Assembly: GCA_016867815.1 (NCBI GenBank) | Contig: VGIR01000028.1 | Coordinates: 1 to 34,189 of the forward strand | Length of the DNA stretch: 34,189 nucleotides | Source of the DNA: a candidate division WOR-3 bacterium | GTDB lineage: Bacteria > Hydrothermota > Tepidihabitantia > Tepidihabitantales > Tepidihabitantaceae | Reading direction: 5' to 3' | Shown: positions 192 through 13,012 of the stretch, piece by piece | Numbering within the stretch: the first letter of the stretch is position 1 | Layout: every line of letters begins with the position of its first letter | The notes under the pieces: generated by a model | Seen by the model: the letters and a program-made list of their open reading frames with translations, nothing else | Told to the model about the DNA's origin: nothing | Database searches by the model: none | Position numbers and translations under genes: made by a program

Positions 192-389
192 TCTCCTGAT
201 TCTCCTCAGACAGCTCGGTATGGCAAGCTCGTGAATACACTGGCCAACGGTGAGGAGAAGCCGGGCTACTACAACCTGACCTGGAACCGACAGGACGCCA
301 AGGGGCGCAGTTGTGCCTGTGGTGTGTGCTTCTGCACGCTAGCGGGTGAGAACCAGCGGTTCAGCAGGAAGGTTGTGCTAGCGGAGTAG
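192..389 (+). pseudogene. C-terminal remnant of a sorting-domain (FlgD-like Ig) exported protein
   Basis: The frame ending at the TAG at 387-389 reads GKLVNTLANGEEKPGYY, then NLTWNRQDAKGR, and ends FSRKVVLAE. This is the last strand set of the FlgD-like Ig / T9SS type A sorting domain (pattern G-x-x-V-x-x-L, G-x-Y-x-x-x-W-x-x-x-D-x-x-G, then a basic C-terminal strand). The frame is closed by a stop at 189-191, so the domain's first half and all cargo sequence are missing. An unrelated-looking frame at 37-234 overlaps the break, which would fit a frameshift, but I cannot recognise cargo sequence there. The expected GVY-F core reads CGVCFCTLAG, with unusual cysteines. A second copy of the last 11 residues follows at 477-509. 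Decayed gene is the best reading; moderately sure. Confidence 0.6.
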
Positions 390-509
390 ACCCTGGTGCG
401 GAAGCTATACCAGTCCGCGTGGCAGACGCTTGGGACACGATCCGAAACGTCGGACGTTTCGGTCATGTCCCGCGCTCGCTTCAGCAGGAAGGTGATACTC
501 ACCGAGTAG
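357..509 (+). repeat. Direct repeat of a gene tail, 33 bp, period exactly 120 bp
   Basis: Bases 357-389 encode RFSRKVVLAE-stop and bases 477-509 encode RFSRKVILTE-stop; the two 33-bp blocks differ at about eight positions. The spacing is 120 bp, a multiple of three, and the frame between the two stops has no other stop. The second tail is preceded by the 40-bp palindromic element at 432-471. It looks like a duplicated 3' gene end with a palindrome between the copies. Confidence 0.7.
432..471. repeat. Palindromic element family A, copy 1
   Basis: This is a 40-bp inverted repeat. The core at 442-462 is a perfect palindrome with 10-base arms (CCGAAACGTC / GACGTTTCGG) around one central base. 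The outer ends GGGACACGA and TCATGTCCC are complementary with one mismatch. The same element in opposite orientation lies at 8291-8330. Such a sequence would form a strong hairpin in RNA or single-stranded DNA, like REP/BIME or RPE elements. Confidence 0.85.
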
Positions 510-530
510 GCCGAGCTACCCGTCGAACAG

Positions 531-567
531 AGGCTGCCCGCTACAATGCGGGCAGCCTGCTTCTTCT
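531..567 (+). terminator. Intrinsic terminator
   Basis: A perfect 11-bp stem (AGGCTGCCCGC at 531-541, GCGGGCAGCCT at 548-558) with a 6-base loop is followed by GCTTCTTCT. It follows the duplicated gene tail and faces the convergent minus-strand gene at 614-985, so it may serve both. Confidence 0.8.
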
Positions 568-613
568 GAGGGCGCCGTCTGGCTAGCTCACCAGCCGAGC
601 GGTGCGGTAGATG

Positions 614-985
614 CTATGGAGTTGGCGGTGGGGAGTTGAAGACCTGGGTTCGGATGGCTGCAAGCACGTCGGGGTTCTGGCCACGGCCAGCCCATTTCTG
701 GAGCAGGACCTCGCTTGCCATGGCGAAGCTCTCGCCGGTGATATGCTGCTGCCGCGAGAGCTTCCAAAGCTGGCGGGCATAGCTCAGATAGGGGACGTAG
801 TTGGTGGTGTGGACGCCCTGCTGGTTCAGCACTTCTTTGACCTTCATCTCCATGGCGGCCATCTCCACGGTTGCAGCTTCGTAGCGCTGTCTCATACCTT
901 CCTGCAGAAGGTCGAGAGTCGCCTTGGCCTGCGCTGGACTGTACTTTTTCTGCCAGCGCTCTATACGTCTCGTAACATCGGACAT
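614..985 (-). CDS. Hypothetical protein, 123 aa
   Basis: I do not recognise the family. The protein starts MSDVTRRIERWQKKYSP and is charged, alanine-rich and probably mostly helical. It has no signal peptide or membrane segment, so it is likely cytoplasmic. The ATG at 985 is preceded by AGGAG eight bases upstream, a good ribosome binding site, and the composition is protein-like throughout, which is why I accept it over the overlapping plus-strand frames. The C-terminus is proline-rich (NSPPPTP). It is convergent with the remnant gene to its left, and the 11-bp hairpin at 531-558 lies past its stop. Upstream is a long stretch without genes, so it is probably transcribed alone. Confidence 0.65.
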   Translation of the reverse strand: MSDVTRRIERWQKKYSPAQAKATLDLLQEGMRQRYEAATVEMAAMEMKVKEVLNQQGVHTTNYVPYLSYARQLWKLSRQQHITGESFAMASEVLLQKWAGRGQNPDVLAAIRTQVFNSPPPTP

Positions 986-1231
986 TTCCGCGCTCCTTTC
1001 ATGCAGCCTATGCCGTCACTTTGACCCTAGGGAAAGTCCCCGTCCAGGATCAGTCCCTCTAAGGAGCGGGCAGGCTGAAGCCCATTCGACAGGCTCAGGG
1101 CATGCCTGCATGCGCCTCGTCTGTCCGTTCTTAACCAGTTAGACGCACATGAGTTACATCCGATGCTGGTACGTCTAAGTGCTTGAGAATGCAACAGATA
1201 CAAGACAGGGCTATGGGCATTCGATAGAGGC
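986..1231. other. Non-coding stretch with a CCC-TTCGACA-like element
   Basis: No gene is seen. Bases 1080-1102 read GCCCATTCGACAGGCTCAGGGC, one mismatch from the imperfect palindrome CCCTTCGACAAGCTCAGGG, which I recall as very widespread in bacterial intergenic DNA. At 1139-1145 and 1172-1178 the 7-base arms TTAGACG and CGTCTAA form an inverted repeat with a 26-base spacer, a possible binding site upstream of the 614-985 gene. Confidence 0.4.
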
Positions 1232-4824: not shown

Positions 4825-4897
4825 GGGGCTGTAGCTCAGCTGGGAGAGCGCCGGCTTTGCAAGCCGGATGTCGCCAGTTCGACTCTGGTCAGCTCCA
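4825..4897 (+). tRNA. tRNA-Ala (anticodon TGC)
   Basis: All four arms fold. The acceptor GGGGCTG pairs with CAGCTCC and includes the alanine identity pair G3-U70. The D arm is GCTC...GAGC, the anticodon stem CCGGC/GCCGG encloses loop TTTGCAA, and the T stem GCCAG/CTGGT encloses loop TTCGACT. The discriminator is A73 at 4897. CCA is not encoded (TCA follows), so it must be added after transcription. Confidence 0.97.
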
Positions 4898-5859: not shown

Positions 5860-8493
5860 ATGTCAGCAAGGGCAGTTGTTCACGTAGCGTCCGCCTGCGC
5901 CGTAGTAGGCTTGCTCGTTAGCGGCGACGCACTGGCGTTCTCGGGCGTGAGTCACCAACCCCAGTGCTTGGGAGACGCTTTCATGGTTGATACCGGCGTG
6001 GTTCTCATACCGGCGGCAGGCTCGCAGTGTTCGTATAGTGCGGCGTCGAACGGCAACGGCTGGCGCGTGATGTGGGGGTACGGCTATTCTGTCTACACCA
6101 ACGGCATCAGCACTGACGGCAGCCTGCTGGAGACCTGGGGAGGCCTGGTCGGCCACGACTCCTACATGAGGGGCGGACTGACCCGCTCCATCGTGGGAAC
6201 AGGCTCTGGCTTCTTGGCCGTCTGGACTTCGAGGAGCGCGCCAAGCCGCATTTGGGCATCGAGGCTCGACTCGGCCGGTACGCTGGCCGACTCACTACCA
6301 GTCTTTGAAGGTGACAGCAACCAGGCCTGGCCGGCGGCTGCCTTCGACGGCGACTCGACATGTCTTGTCGTATGGGCGACCTTCCGGGGATCGGACCGTG
6401 ACATCTACGCCGCCCGGCTGACCGCTAGTGGGCAGGTGCTTGACACGAACCCGCTGCCTGTGGCACAGGTACCTTCACAGCGCGACATGTTCCCCACGGT
6501 TGCGTTCGGGCAGGGAGTCTACCTGGTGGCCTGGACGTCGTACGATTCGAGCAACTGGGCAACCGCCAAGGCAAGAAGAGTGTCTGCGGCCGGGGTCTTG
6601 CTGGATACCGCCATCTTCTTGCGTCGCGATTCAGCAATGAGGCAGGAAAGGCCCGCGCTTGCGTTTGGTGACACTTGCTTCCTTGCAGCATGGTCCGAGG
6701 GCATGGGCCGGCCTGATATCTACGCAGCCCGGGTTTCGGTATCCGGCAGCATCCTCGACTCGGCGGGCATGCAGTTGTCCAGTGGCCCGTTTCGTGACTG
6801 GTTCCCTTCAGTCGGGTTCGACGGGACGAGTTTTCTCGTCATGTGGCAAGAGACAGACACGATGGTCATGAATGCCGGCACTGTGTGCGGGCGACGGGTG
6901 ACCGCTGACGGGGTGCCGCTCGATTCAGTTCCCATTCGTCCCGCTCCCCCTCACAGCAGTTGCACGTATCCAAGTGTGGCCGCGGACCATAGGAACTTCC
7001 TGGTCGCGTTCTGCGCTTACGATAGCCTCACCCATGACGACAACGTATGCTGCAGGCGAATCAGCCCGGATGGAGCAGTTCTGGATTCCGGAATCTTCTT
7101 TCCCCTTGGGGCGGACGCCCAGACCGGCCCGAGCGGCGCCTCCGACGGCACTGACTTCCTTGTAGCTTGGACTGAGACGCGGCCACAGGGCCAGACGGTA
7201 GTTCAGGCCGCGCGGATCGCGGCCGACGGCACCCTGCTTGATCCGGTCGGATTCACGGTCAGCGATGCGCCGGGGGCCAAGAGCAATGTGGCGACCGGGT
7301 TCGGGGACTCGCTCTACCTGGTGGCTTGGGCGGACAATCGGAGCGCTGAAGGCGCGGACATCTACTGCGCGAGGGTGAGTCGAGACGGCCAGGTGCTGGA
7401 TATGGACGGAATACTCGTCTGCGATGAGTCGTTGTACCAGAACTCACCTGATGTGAGCTTTGACGGCCATAACTTCCTCCTGGTCTGGTATGACTACCGC
7501 ACGGGGACTGACGGCGATATCTATGCGGCGCGCGTCAGCCCGGGTGGCGTCGTGCTCGATCCGGGTGGCTTCCCGGTATCTGTCGATACGTGTGAAGACA
7601 TGTGGCCAAAGCTATGCTTCGCGGACACGGAGTATCTCGTTGTTTGGGGAAGTGGTTTCTCCCTGCAGGGCCCATACGACATCTATGGTGCGCTCATAGC
7701 CCGTGATGGGGTGATTACCAAGCCACGGTTCCTGGTCAGCGGCGCGACAGGGGAGCAGAGGTACCCGGCGGTTGCGAGCGGGCCGACGAGTTATCTCGTC
7801 GTTTGGGTGGATACGCGGTTGCCCAATACCAAGCCCGACATCTTCGGCACGCGGGTGAGTGCCGATGGTACGGTGCTCGATACGAATGGCATTGCGGTCG
7901 TTGAGAATAGCGGCGAGGAGCAGAGCCCCAGAGTCACCTCAGACGGGGCCGGATTCAGAGTGCTCTGGAGCCGCTGGGAATTGGGTACGACGGCAATCGC
8001 CACCGGCCGAGTTGACACGGCAGGCAATGTCAGCCACGTCTCAGACTGGTTCGCGGTGACCGTGTCCGGTCCCGACGCCAGCGTCGGGTACGACGTGGCA
8101 TATGGCGGCGGCCCAGAGCTGCTGCTCTTGTTTGACTTCTGGACGGACACGGCCGCGGCCACGTACTACGGCAACCGCCGGCTCTGGGCAAGACTCGGAG
8201 ACGTGCCGGGAGTGGAGCAGGCCGAAAGCTGGTTGTCGAGGAGAGCGACAGGCGGAGCTTCAATCGTCCGCGGCGTGCTGTTCTTGCCGCGGGACATGAC
8301 CGATACCTCCGACGTTTCGGATCGTGTCCCAAGACCCGTGCTGCTGGACATCAGCGGGCGGAAGGTGATGAGTCTGAAGTCCGGGGCGAATGACGTGCGG
8401 GCGCTGGCGCCGGGGGTGTACTTCCTCAGAGGACCGAAGACCGAAGACCGGAGCCCGAACGCCACCGTCCGCAAGGTCATCATCGCAAGGTAG
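5860..8493 (+). CDS. Exported repeat protein with C-terminal sorting-like domain, 877 aa
   Basis: A signal peptide (about residues 1-26, ending GDALA) precedes 12-13 degenerate repeats of 50-65 residues. Each carries a hydrophobic strand with a central Trp (F-L-V-V-W or Y-L-V-A-W), then DIYAARVS and G-x-V-L-D. Such repeats probably stack as blades or beta-solenoid turns; the substrate is unknown. The C-terminus (LLDISGRKV, PGVYFLRG, VRKVIIAR) is a short FlgD-like/T9SS-type sorting domain, so surface attachment or secretion is likely. GAGGAGG just before the ATG supports this start. Two repeat elements interrupt the C-terminal region: palindrome A, translated as PRDMTDTSDVSDRVPR, and a heptad array, translated around GPKTEDRSPNA. 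It is convergent with the downstream hydrolase gene, with a shared terminator between. Confidence 0.88.
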   Translation: MSARAVVHVASACAVVGLLVSGDALAFSGVSHQPQCLGDAFMVDTGVVLIPAAGSQCSYSAASNGNGWRVMWGYGYSVYTNGISTDGSLLETWGGLVGHDSYMRGGLTRSIVGTGSGFLAVWTSRSAPSRIWASRLDSAGTLADSLPVFEGDSNQAWPAAAFDGDSTCLVVWATFRGSDRDIYAARLTASGQVLDTNPLPVAQVPSQRDMFPTVAFGQGVYLVAWTSYDSSNWATAKARRVSAAGVLLDTAIFLRRDSAMRQERPALAFGDTCFLAAWSEGMGRPDIYAARVSVSGSILDSAGMQLSSGPFRDWFPSVGFDGTSFLVMWQETDTMVMNAGTVCGRRVTADGVPLDSVPIRPAPPHSSCTYPSVAADHRNFLVAFCAYDSLTHDDNVCCRRISPDGAVLDSGIFFPLGADAQTGPSGASDGTDFLVAWTETRPQGQTVVQAARIAADGTLLDPVGFTVSDAPGAKSNVATGFGDSLYLVAWADNRSAEGADIYCARVSRDGQVLDMDGILVCDESLYQNSPDVSFDGHNFLLVWYDYRTGTDGDIYAARVSPGGVVLDPGGFPVSVDTCEDMWPKLCFADTEYLVVWGSGFSLQGPYDIYGALIARDGVITKPRFLVSGATGEQRYPAVASGPTSYLVVWVDTRLPNTKPDIFGTRVSADGTVLDTNGIAVVENSGEEQSPRVTSDGAGFRVLWSRWELGTTAIATGRVDTAGNVSHVSDWFAVTVSGPDASVGYDVAYGGGPELLLLFDFWTDTAAATYYGNRRLWARLGDVPGVEQAESWLSRRATGGASIVRGVLFLPRDMTDTSDVSDRVPRPVLLDISGRKVMSLKSGANDVRALAPGVYFLRGPKTEDRSPNATVRKVIIAR
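8291..8330. repeat. Palindromic element family A, copy 2, inside a coding sequence
   Basis: This 40-bp element runs from GGGACATGACC to GACGTTTCGG and ATCGTGTCCC. It is the reverse complement of 432-471 apart from a few changes in one arm. It is translated in frame as a 13-14 residue linker between the repeat region and the sorting domain. Confidence 0.85.
8429..8463. repeat. Heptanucleotide array inside the 877-aa gene, 5 units
   Basis: Units are GAGGACC, GAAGACC, GAAGACC, GGAGCCC and GAACGCC. They encode the loop between the last two strands of the sorting domain. Confidence 0.7.
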
Positions 8494-9888: not shown

Positions 9889-12051
9889 TCACTTGAGCAG
9901 GAAACGGGCGTCAAGGACGAGAGCGCCTTTGCCTTCCTCGTACACGAGCAGCGGGTTGATGTCGAGCTCGCTGATTTCCTTGAAGTCGGTAACGAGCTGT
10001 GACAGGCGCTGCAGACATTCCTTTATCTTCACGACGTCGCGCGGGGCCTCGCCGCGATAGCCTTGCAGTATCTTCACCGCCTTGATGCCGTTGACCATCG
10101 AGTCGGTGGAGATATCGTTCAAGGGCGCGACCCGGAATGTCACGTCCTTCAGGACTTCCACGAGGATGCCGCCGAGACCGAACATCAGTATCGGGCCGAA
10201 GTGCGGGTCGCGGTTCATACCGAGAATCGTCTCGGTCCCCTTGGGCGCCATCTTCTGTACCAGCACGCCCCAGATGTCGGCGTCGGGCTTCTTGGCCATC
10301 ACGCCGGCGAGCAGGCTGGCGTGTTCCTCTCTTAGCCTGGTTTCGTTGGCGATGTTGACCCGGACGCCGCCGAACTCTGTCTTGTGCAGGACGTCGGGGG
10401 AGACGATCTTCAGGACGACCGGGTAGCCGATGTCCTTGGCCGTGGCCAATGCTTCATCGAGGGTCTTGGTCAGCTTCGATGCCGGAACAGGCAGGCCGTA
10501 GGCGCGGAGGATTTCGTGGCCCTCGGGTTCAGACACGAACAGGGTGGGTCGGGAACGGACGTGCTTCAGGACTTCCCTCACGACCTCCGGCTTGACGTCG
10601 GCGAAGTCGCGGACTTCGCCCTGGGGGCGTTTGCTCCATTGGGCGAAGTCGGCCATCGTGGCCATGGCACGGGCTGCGTTCTCCGGGAATTGGTAGTGCG
10701 GTATCTTGTCGCGCAGAAGTTGACGGCGCACGGCCTGGGTGTTGGTCAGGGTCTGGACGCAGGCGAGGATGGGCTTGTCGGATTTCTGGCCGACGTCGGC
10801 GATGATGCCTGCGACGACAGCGGAGTCGGCCATCAGGGTCGGAGTCCAGATGGGGATGAGGCCGTCAACGTTCTCGTCCGCGACAAGGAGTTCCAGCGCG
10901 GCCCGGTACCGTTTCTCGTCCGAGTCTCCGATAACGTCTACCGGGTTGGCGGTTGCGGCCGTCACCGGCAGGTTTTCCCTGAGTCTGTCGCGGGTGTGCT
11001 GCGTGAGTTGAGCAAGCTCAAGGCCGTTTCTAACGCAGGCGTCGGTGGCCATTATCCCGACTCCGCCCGCGTTGGTGAGTATCGCGACGCGGCGGCCTTT
11101 GGGTGTGGGCTGGTAGGCAAGCGCCACGGCCTTGGCAAAGAGTTCATTGAGGGTGTCAACTCGGAGGATGCGGGACTGGGCAAAGAAGGCGTCGTAGGCA
11201 GCGTCCGACCCGGCCAGCGCACCGGTGTGAGACGAGGCAGCTCTTGCGCCTTCGGTCGTGCGGCCGGCCTTGATGGCGAGTATGGGCTTGGGTCGTTCCG
11301 GGCGGGACGTGGTCTCACGGGCCAGGCGCATGAACTCGGCCGGGTTTGACAGGTCTTCGAGGTAGAGCATTATCACGTCGGTCTCAGGGTCGTCGCGCAG
11401 GTAGGCGAGCAGGTCGCACTCGTTGATGTCGGCCTTGTTGCCGATGGAGGCGAACTTGGAGAGCCCGACTTCCTCGGCGATGGCGTATTCGAGCCCGTTC
11501 ACGCCGATTGCGCCGGACTGGGAGACGAGCGCGATGTTGCCGAAAGCCGGCATAGAGGGGCCGAAGGTGGCGTTCAGACGGATGCCGGGCGAGCCGGAGA
11601 TGATGCCGAAGCAGTTGGGTCCGATGAGCCGGATGCCACAGGAGCGGGCGCGTTCTCGCACCGCGGCCTCGAGTTCGGCGCCGGCGGGCCCCATTTCCTT
11701 GAATCCGGCGGAGATTATGATCGCGCCTTTGATTCCCTTCGTGCCGCACTCGTCGAGGGTGGTGGGCACGGACGCGGCAGGGACAATCAGGACCGCGAGG
11801 TCAACTTCGTCCGGAACGCCGAGTACAGACTCGTAGGCCTTGACTCCGAGCACACTGCGTTGCCTCTTGTTTACCGGGAACACGACGCCGGTATAGCCGC
11901 CGAAGAGGACGTTGGCAAACAAGACGCGACCGACGGAGCCGTCGCGATTGGATGCGCCGACCACTGCGACCGAGCGGGGCTTGAAGATGAAGTCCAGGGA
12001 ACTGACGATTGACGATTGGCGATTGACGACGGGTGGAGAGTCTCTCATCAT
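9889..12051 (-). CDS. ADP-forming acyl-CoA synthetase (acetate-CoA ligase type), fused alpha and beta subunits
   Basis: The 720-residue cytoplasmic enzyme interconverts acyl-CoA, ADP and phosphate with acid, CoA and ATP, typically conserving energy in fermentation. In order it has a CoA-binding Rossmann domain (about 20-110, VGASNRDGSVGRV), succinyl-CoA-ligase-like domains with the phosphorylated His275 in SSHTGAL, and a C-terminal ATP-grasp domain (about 500-720, GYPVVLKIVSPDVLHKTE). I place the start at ATG 12051, which overlaps the stop of the MBL-fold gene by four bases (ATGA) with AGGAGG upstream; an upstream frame to 12168 is only the shadow of that gene. The N-terminal PPVVNRQSSIVSSLD is encoded by a heptad array (12000-12027) and is probably not functional. 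Coupled translation with the hydrolase upstream is likely. Confidence 0.93.
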   Translation of the reverse strand: MMRDSPPVVNRQSSIVSSLDFIFKPRSVAVVGASNRDGSVGRVLFANVLFGGYTGVVFPVNKRQRSVLGVKAYESVLGVPDEVDLAVLIVPAASVPTTLDECGTKGIKGAIIISAGFKEMGPAGAELEAAVRERARSCGIRLIGPNCFGIISGSPGIRLNATFGPSMPAFGNIALVSQSGAIGVNGLEYAIAEEVGLSKFASIGNKADINECDLLAYLRDDPETDVIMLYLEDLSNPAEFMRLARETTSRPERPKPILAIKAGRTTEGARAASSHTGALAGSDAAYDAFFAQSRILRVDTLNELFAKAVALAYQPTPKGRRVAILTNAGGVGIMATDACVRNGLELAQLTQHTRDRLRENLPVTAATANPVDVIGDSDEKRYRAALELLVADENVDGLIPIWTPTLMADSAVVAGIIADVGQKSDKPILACVQTLTNTQAVRRQLLRDKIPHYQFPENAARAMATMADFAQWSKRPQGEVRDFADVKPEVVREVLKHVRSRPTLFVSEPEGHEILRAYGLPVPASKLTKTLDEALATAKDIGYPVVLKIVSPDVLHKTEFGGVRVNIANETRLREEHASLLAGVMAKKPDADIWGVLVQKMAPKGTETILGMNRDPHFGPILMFGLGGILVEVLKDVTFRVAPLNDISTDSMVNGIKAVKILQGYRGEAPRDVVKIKECLQRLSQLVTDFKEISELDINPLLVYEEGKGALVLDARFLLK
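12000..12027. repeat. Heptanucleotide array in the N-terminus of the acyl-CoA synthetase gene, 4 units
   Basis: Plus-strand units are AACTGAC, GATTGAC, GATTGGC and GATTGAC. They encode the unconserved residues before the CoA-binding domain. Confidence 0.7.
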
Positions 12052-13004
12052 GCACCTCCTGACGTTTGGCCGGGGCTGCGCGACAGGGGCTTCAGCACCG
12101 GCCTTCCATCTTCCTCTTCGATGACACCGCAGGCGTACTCCGGGTCGTGTTCGAGGAACGACAGCCACTTACCGGCGATGGCCTGCTGTACGAGCTTCTC
12201 CTTCTGCTCCATTGTCTCGAGCGGAGACAAATCATACCCCATAATGTAAGGTGTGGCAATATGTGAACGGGTGGGAATCAGGTCGCCCCAGAAGACGGCG
12301 GTCCGGCCTCGGAAGGGGTTCTGGGGTCCTGGGATTCCGGGGTTCAGGGGTTCAGCGTCCCCAATTCTGGATTCTGGTTTCTGACTTCTGACTTCTGAAT
12401 TGTCCTTGATCAGGACGATCTGGTGTCCGGGCGTGTGGCCGCCGGTTGGCACAAGCCTGAGACCGGGCACGAGCTCGACATCACCGTCAAGCAGTTGGAG
12501 AAGGCCGGCCTCGTGCACCGGCAGGTAGTCTGCGGGAACATAGGACGCGCGGGAACGGCGGTTCGGAGTCAGCGCGGCCTCCCACTCCCGCTGCTGAACG
12601 TAATGGCGGGCATTCGGGAAGCGGGGAACCAGCTTGCCGTGCTCGTTGAGCCTGGTGGTGGCTCCGGCGTGGTCGAAGTGAAGGTGGGTGAGCACAACCT
12701 TGGTGATGTCCTCGGGTTTGAACCCGGCACGGGCCAGCGATGATTCGACAGTACTCGATCTCTCTATGCTGTAGATGCTACGAGCCTTCTCGTCCCACTT
12801 GTCGCCGATACCGGTGTCGATGAGGATGCGCTCAGCCGCCGCGACTACGAGCAGCGGACGCGAGGCGAGCCTGATTCGGTTGCGGGAATCGGCCGGATTT
12901 GTTCGTTCCCAGACGGGTTTGGGCACGACGCCAAACATCGCCCCGCCGTCGAGTCCGAAGAACCCGTCGAGAAAGCTGTGTAGCTCAAACTCGCCTAGCC
13001 GCAT
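12048..13004 (-). CDS. Metallo-beta-lactamase-fold hydrolase
   Basis: The 318-residue protein has the zinc motif HLHFDHAG (107-114), a later His in GGHTPGH and Asp in FWGDLIPT, the usual ligands of the MBL fold. The layout resembles lactonase/AHL-hydrolase-like members; the substrate cannot be told. There is no signal peptide. I choose the ATG at 13004 over the GTG at 13010: the -10 box TACAAT ends at 13013, so transcription should begin near 13006 and the mRNA is essentially leaderless. No ribosome binding site is present. Between GGHTPGHQIVLIKD and FRGRTAVFWGD there is an insert of about 25 residues (SEVRSQKPESRIGDAE...) encoded by a heptad array. The stop overlaps the start of the acyl-CoA synthetase gene, so the two are one operon. 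Confidence 0.88.
   Translation of the reverse strand: MRLGEFELHSFLDGFFGLDGGAMFGVVPKPVWERTNPADSRNRIRLASRPLLVVAAAERILIDTGIGDKWDEKARSIYSIERSSTVESSLARAGFKPEDITKVVLTHLHFDHAGATTRLNEHGKLVPRFPNARHYVQQREWEAALTPNRRSRASYVPADYLPVHEAGLLQLLDGDVELVPGLRLVPTGGHTPGHQIVLIKDNSEVRSQKPESRIGDAEPLNPGIPGPQNPFRGRTAVFWGDLIPTRSHIATPYIMGYDLSPLETMEQKEKLVQQAIAGKWLSFLEHDPEYACGVIEEEDGRPVLKPLSRSPGQTSGGA
12364..12405. repeat. Heptanucleotide array inside the MBL-fold gene, 6 units
   Basis: Plus-strand units are ATTCTGG, ATTCTGG, TTTCTGA, CTTCTGA, CTTCTGA and ATTGTCC. The array is in phase with the array at 1917-1958 and ends identically. It codes for a loop insertion. Confidence 0.8.
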
Positions 13005-13012
13005 CGGCACAG

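Follow-up and report, generated by a model that had tools for sequence, protein, structure and literature searches.

A palindrome present twice in a 34,189-nt stretch of the genome of a candidate division WOR-3 bacterium (the window) raises the question of what it is, and how one of its copies came to be translated within a protein-coding gene. The initial annotation described a near-perfect 40-bp palindrome recurring in inverted orientation, with the second copy read in frame before the sorting domain of an 877-aa protein. Both observations were borne out. The plus strand of copy 2 and the minus strand of copy 1, GGGACATGACCGAAACGTCCGACGTTTCGGATCGTGTCCC, are the same 40-mer with 2 mismatches, and the match extends to 46 nt with 96% identity (see the table). 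Shuffled window sequences contained no matches to the 40-mer. Copy 1 folds into a hairpin with a 3-nt loop and 18 pairs, one of which is a T.G wobble; a single A is bulged. In an Rfam search of the whole window, only a tRNA at 4825-4897 was found, and the element had no match above the gathering score.

Features of the window associated with the palindromic element
Feature	Position	Strand	Remarks
Palindromic element, copy 1 (consensus sequence)	432..471	-	intergenic; adjoins degenerate sorting-domain tail; top covariance-model score, 79.3 bits
Extended match of copies 1 and 2, including conserved GCGC / AAG flanks	429..474	-	inverted repeat, 46 nt, 96%
Palindromic element, copy 2	8291..8330	+	translated as RDMTDTSDVSDRVPR, sense, frame 1
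Host of copy 2: gene for an 877-aa secreted repeat protein whose sorting-type domain is C-terminal	5860..8493	+	open reading frame; no Pfam family
C-terminal sorting-type domain	8260..8490	+	insertions recur in the linker VRGVLFL...LLDISGRKV; the genome has 77 matches to the domain
3' end of upstream sorting-domain gene, RFSRKVVLAE followed by stop	357..389	+	direct repeat and sequence
Second sorting-domain tail, RFSRKVILTE followed by stop	477..509	+	direct repeat and sequence; in frame with plus-strand reading of copy 1; no start codon

The placement of both copies at the 3' end of sorting-domain genes is also a fair description. Copy 1 is outside any gene accepted by the codon-based caller; it lies just past the stop codon (387-389) of one sorting-domain tail and before the degenerate second tail. 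In the 877-aa protein, the peptide RDMTDTSDVSDRVPR stands between ...VRGVLFLP and PVLLDISGRKV.... Copy 1 is part of a duplicated 746-bp unit (96% identity between window positions 330-1075 and positions 1403-2148 of locus L025, contig C13 of the same genome), which contains a sorting-domain tail, the element and a 123-aa ORF. A fragment of 231 bp of this unit is present at 83% in the sister genome G003. The 123-aa ORF (614-985, minus strand) matches the Pfam family PF12193, Sulf_coat_C, the coat protein of a Sulfolobus filamentous virus, over the cut-off (E 9e-8). It is situated 143 bp from copy 1, the spacing being identical in L025, and its relatives occur close to element copies in L120, L175 and L189.

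Further copies, on which the initial annotation had staked its reading, are numerous. The window belongs to a 3.37-Mb WOR-3 genome (G000) which, like all genomes compared here, is a metagenome-assembled genome (MAG). A consensus search of it found 10 copies within three mismatches, and a covariance model built from these produced 91 rows. Since both strands of many palindromes are hit, the rows reduce to about 50 separate places. The copies have nearly invariant arms, GGGACATGA...ATCGTGTCCC. The conserved unit is 39, 40, 42 or 43 nt long depending on variation of the core, rarely longer or nested, and about 48 nt with the flanks. Variants of the inner stem are compensated: AAACGT/ACGTTT, AAATGT/ACATTT, AATCGT/ACGATT, AATTGC/GCAATT and others. 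The core pairing in 55 distinct 40-nt copies is 95.4%, compared to 77.8% on average and 81.4% at most when the 3' arms were dealt among the copies, and the covariation score of the 10-copy alignment was attained in none of 500 shuffles. When the element is read from the GGGACATGA side, the T.G pair is retained, and on the opposite strand it becomes an A.C mismatch. Thus the element has a direction.

Long copies of 81-94 nt (L065 1999-2092, L067 1999-2091, L060 2005-2085) resemble the element with a nested palindrome of the GGGACTGTCCC type in the core; the one in L067 is read in frame in RecF. A sub-class with common outer arms and a different inner hairpin, TGCGGAAGCCCGC..GCGGGATCGC, was seen in deltaproteobacterial MAGs and viral contigs (L111, L205; viral contigs L348 and L355-L360). 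The integron attC site was considered as a candidate and dropped. Such sites have GTTRRRY-like conserved arms, and the conserved arms of the element are not GTTRRRY-like.

Invariant arms, a covarying inner stem and a T.G pair favouring one strand would also suit a functional structured RNA or a DNA-binding site (a terminator, an mRNA stabiliser, or a site for a nucleoid or repair protein), selected by the host and tolerated in genes. The same may be said of the copy-1 element scoring 79.3 bits in both G000 and G003, while the surrounding 231 bp are only 83% identical. However, presence at the same site varies among close relatives, the copies lie in every orientation with respect to genes, no Rfam family matches, and the element was not hit at all in six genomes of the same family. 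We consider this explanation improbable.

The positions relative to genes were analysed for 101 copies from G000, G002 and G003, using our own codon-usage model trained on the long genes of the window. Of these copies, 63 (62%) are genic, compared to 79% of random windows. They are read in sense frame 1 (31 copies), antisense frame 0 (12), sense frame 2 (9), antisense frame 2 (6) and antisense frame 1 (5). None of the 63 is read in sense frame 0, the frame containing TGA. The peptides with the highest hydrophilicity come from sense frame 1 (RDMTETSDVSDRVP) and antisense frame 0 (GTRSETSDVSVMS). Ribosomal bypassing of hairpin inserts is described for some mitochondrial hairpins. Here it is unlikely, because no insert shifts the frame and none is read in the one with TGA.

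The hosts go well beyond sorting-domain proteins. By sequence motifs or Pfam they include alanyl- and isoleucyl-tRNA synthetases (AlaRS and IleRS), RecN, MutS, RecF, a copper P-type ATPase, two NtrC-type regulators, ApbE and a TruA-like pseudouridine synthase; a single gene, that of AlaRS in G002 (L369), contains three copies. The copy at L030 1505-1544 overlaps the likely start of uvrA, and thus its translation is uncertain. It could itself provide the ATG start codon of uvrA (GTC ATG TCC CGC).

The sorting-type domain is found 54-94 times per genome, and the string RDMTE..SDRVP occupies the same place in several sorting-domain paralogues. This could be a protein-level linker motif, immobile by itself and spread by duplication of sorting-domain genes. 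However, that very site is read in at least four combinations of frame and orientation, and the same DNA is found in dozens of unrelated proteins and in intergenic regions. The distribution over many frames and many genes refutes the spread of a conserved linker peptide by duplication, and we regard this possibility as very remote.

Other repeats were observed in similar positions. An apparent second palindrome family, of the GGGGACAGTCCC type, encodes peptides such as KMGTVPSGTVPTFGP in the sorting-domain linkers of L038, L274 and L282, and a similar insert occurs in L302 (AlaRS of G003); it is translated in frame in loops that are also used by the element. Strings resembling simple repeats (TCTGACTTCTGACTTCTG, RGEKREEGG, NRQSSIVNR, SAICNLQSAI) are read in frame in conserved genes, namely at window positions 12354-12405, inside a metallo-beta-lactamase-like gene (12048-13010), and in L048 MutS, L030 UvrA, L067 RecF and L300/L301 AlaRS.

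Comparison of orthologues revealed both filled and empty sites. In RecN, the insertion site lies between the ABC signature and Walker B. It is filled in G000 (+45 nt) and G001 (+69 nt), and is empty, with nearly constant length, in four sister genomes and in the outgroups. The AlaRS element is common to G000 and G002, with two differences, and the site is empty in G001. The same AlaRS loop contains a different palindrome, GGGGACAGTCCC...GGGACAGCCCCC, in G003, and simple repeats in G004 and G005. The IleRS site has the element in G000 only, and other repeat-like inserts in G001 and G003. The check proposed in the initial annotation, for orthologues of the 877-aa protein that lack the segment, came out in its favour: the closest homologue in the sister genomes (L275 of G003, 58% identity over 607 aa) has a different linker, without the segment. 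The flanks of the filled and empty RecN and AlaRS sites are diverged or replaced, no target-site duplication, as would mark a MITE, is visible there, and no exact insertion boundary or target-site duplication could be defined. The inserts at these sites and in the multi-frame linker are independent insertions in permissive loops.

The location of the inserts was mapped onto protein structures. In alignments with PDB entries, the RecN insert corresponds to a short turn of Deinococcus RecN, and the AlaRS insert to a variable loop of a solved AlaRS (1riq). In the AlphaFold model of RecN from G000, the insert (residues 461-477) is the sole segment below pLDDT 50; it is placed between helix 445-465 and strand 481-485.

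The element was found in all five sister genomes of the genus (21-92 raw matches, both strands counted), in 6 of the 12 other genomes of the family, and in none of 43 genomes of other families. Among the matches listed in a scan of GTDB contigs with the exact arms, there were WOR-3, Aminicenantes/Acidobacteria (Acidobacteriota), Armatimonadetes, several deltaproteobacterial groups, Alphaproteobacteria, Myxococcales and one Clostridiales MAG. In viral contigs, 15 stretches contain the element arms. The cores are paired in 122 of the 145 exact-arm matches listed from genome and viral contigs. With 19 fixed bases, nine gap lengths and 257 Gb, a rough chance expectation is about 17 matches, and therefore single matches with non-palindromic cores (L159, L168, L187) were discounted. 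Some of the single arm matches in other groups are probably due to chance.

The initial annotation also suggested looking for a Y1 transposase gene. A link exists, but as gene adjacency it was seen only in three alphaproteobacterial MAGs. Clustering of the neighbours of 119 loci identified a Y1 (IS200-like) transposase as the sole recurrent mobile gene; the Y1_Tnp genes are 20-70 bp from the copies in L107, L144 and L172. In L144 (Magnetovibrio) the copies lie on both sides of the Y1 gene, which is flanked by the inverted repeat GGGACACGATCC, and in L172 and L107 on one side only. No element beside a Y1 gene was observed at about 30 loci of the WOR-3 genus, including the genome of the window, at 20 loci in the rest of the family, or at the loci scanned in 11 other genomes. 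Thus, for WOR-3, the mobiliser is one that we infer.

The Y1 genes of the WOR-3 genus have inverted ends of their own, GGGGACACAATACTTAATT, AGGGACACTTCCCTATTTTC or GGGGACGCTACCC, situated 50-62 bp upstream. These ends, GGGGACAC/GGGGACG, have a GGGGACA motif related to that of the element. Two Y1 loci of G007 have GGGGACATGATA nearby, and no matching inverted end was found at these two loci. Of 18 genomes in the family, 11 have both Y1 and the element and six have neither. The exception is G008, with six element matches and no detectable Y1 gene. The Fisher test for this co-occurrence gives 4e-4 with kinship ignored, the correlation being dependent on phylogeny. In the tree of Y1 proteins, the alphaproteobacterial proteins group, with moderate support, with those WOR-3 proteins whose genes have GGGGACACAATA ends, and the branching next to these three alphaproteobacterial proteins is poorly resolved.

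It might be argued that a mobile or gene-converted palindrome owes its spread to something other than Y1, such as another recombinase, replication slippage or template switching, or gene conversion, which would leave the conclusions on insertion and translation unchanged. Indeed, in WOR-3 and in most other hosts no Y1 gene adjoins the copies, G008 has copies without a Y1 gene, and the compensated changes in the core are consistent with template switching. On the other hand, the unbiased clustering of neighbours yields only Y1 as a recurrent mobile gene, the GGGGACA motif is common to the Y1 ends, and the presence of Y1 and of the element largely coincide in the family. A mover of a different kind is thus rather unlikely in our estimate.

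The best explanation, which we consider probable, is that the element is a mobile hairpin of the REP/TIR type that is not autonomous but mobilised by Y1, and that it behaves like a Rickettsia palindromic element (RPE) without being one. A Y1 (HUH, IS200-like) transposase of the RAYT/TIRYT group would recognise the conserved outer stem, probably as the GGGACA..TGTCCC feet with the T.G pair and the bulged A in folded single-stranded DNA, and would move the element in trans. Insertion would occur genome-wide, and copies disrupting a frame or a structured region of the protein would be lost. The survivors would be copies in a stop-free frame and a surface loop, where the insert may be neutral; as frames, orthologues and alignments show in silico, they are translated as a hydrophilic loop of 13-16 residues. 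The inner stem drifts while its pairing is kept, probably either through selection of the hairpin as a substrate or through template-switch correction of the palindrome. The outcome in the WOR-3 genus would be a generator of new loops in conserved genes. Weighing against this explanation are the Y1 loci of the WOR-3 genus and family, none of which adjoins a copy, the Y1-less G008, the failure to define a target-site duplication or exact boundary, and the share of genic copies, which is lower than for random windows.

Until now, translated palindromic elements in conserved genes were on record mostly for Rickettsia, apart from scattered cases among REPs. The present analysis finds translated insertion to be frequent in a candidate phylum that is uncultured: several sites have both filled and empty orthologues, one and the same AlaRS loop has taken up several unrelated repeat families, and the arms of the element are conserved across phyla. 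Two questions become testable: how often loops are built by mobile hairpins, and which Y1 enzyme recognises the element hairpin. For annotation, it should be kept in mind that such inserts can pass for conserved linkers. A broader possibility, which we offer only tentatively, is that a single hairpin with constant recognition arms travels between many phyla. In the WOR-3 genus, together with other repeat families that enter the same loops, it would then systematically supply new loops to essential enzymes of replication, repair and translation, and some of these loops may be in use.

The element is similar in different respects to several known systems. RPE are palindromes that sit in frame, and are translated, within conserved genes unrelated to one another (PMC10969869, PMC3733652), and in silico the same holds for the element. 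The likeness to RPE claimed in the initial annotation was thus upheld as concerns a dispersed palindrome inserted in frame in protein genes. Membership in the RPE family is not supported, since the element is shorter, has apparently different conserved arms and is present in other phyla. By their description, RPE are about 150 bp long, compared to 40 bp here, appear to differ in sequence, have no reported link to Y1 and are confined to Rickettsia (PMC10969869); a 2024 review called a similar process outside Rickettsia conceivable (PMC10969869).

GTAG REPs (RAYT, REPtron) are likewise dispersed palindromes of 20-40 bp linked to a Y1 transposase. Intragenic copies have already been described: Di Nocera et al. 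(2013) reported REPs within coding regions, of which many lie in genes for repair and some in those for tRNA synthetases and pseudouridine synthases, the GTAG examples including uvrA, recB and tRNA synthetase genes (PMC3733652). However, the arms of the element are different, and most of its copies are genic, whereas REPs are mostly intergenic. The GTAG tetranucleotide is absent at the foot of the hairpin, the flanks being GCGC/GGCG and AAGC in WOR-3 and variable elsewhere. CGTC REPs also are small dispersed palindromes, partly intragenic, but they are defined by an unpaired CGTC end and have no transposase association (PMC3733652). No unpaired CGTC was found outside the stem of the element.

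TIRYT are Y1 genes flanked by TIRs with the GGGGWSAS motif (PMC3733652), and their transposases correspond approximately to subclass 2.1 of TnpA_REP (PMC6006769). Like TIRs and TIRtrons, the element is short and inverted and can lie near Y1 genes, and outside WOR-3 it has a motif of the GGGGWSAS type (GGGGACAC); some TIR families are self-complementary and dispersed. Outside WOR-3 the motif is seen in antisense as GGGGACACGAT, e.g. in L096, L107 and L172; in most WOR-3 copies the first G is replaced by T, giving CTTGGGACAC. The published TIRs, however, flank a resident Y1 gene, which the element does only in the alphaproteobacterial MAGs, and translated copies in conserved genes are not known to be described for TIRs. 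Since the GTAG and CGTC signatures are lacking and the length is not that of RPE, the element is classed here as a variant rather than a member of the known families. It combines TIR-like feet, REP-like size and RPE-like behaviour.
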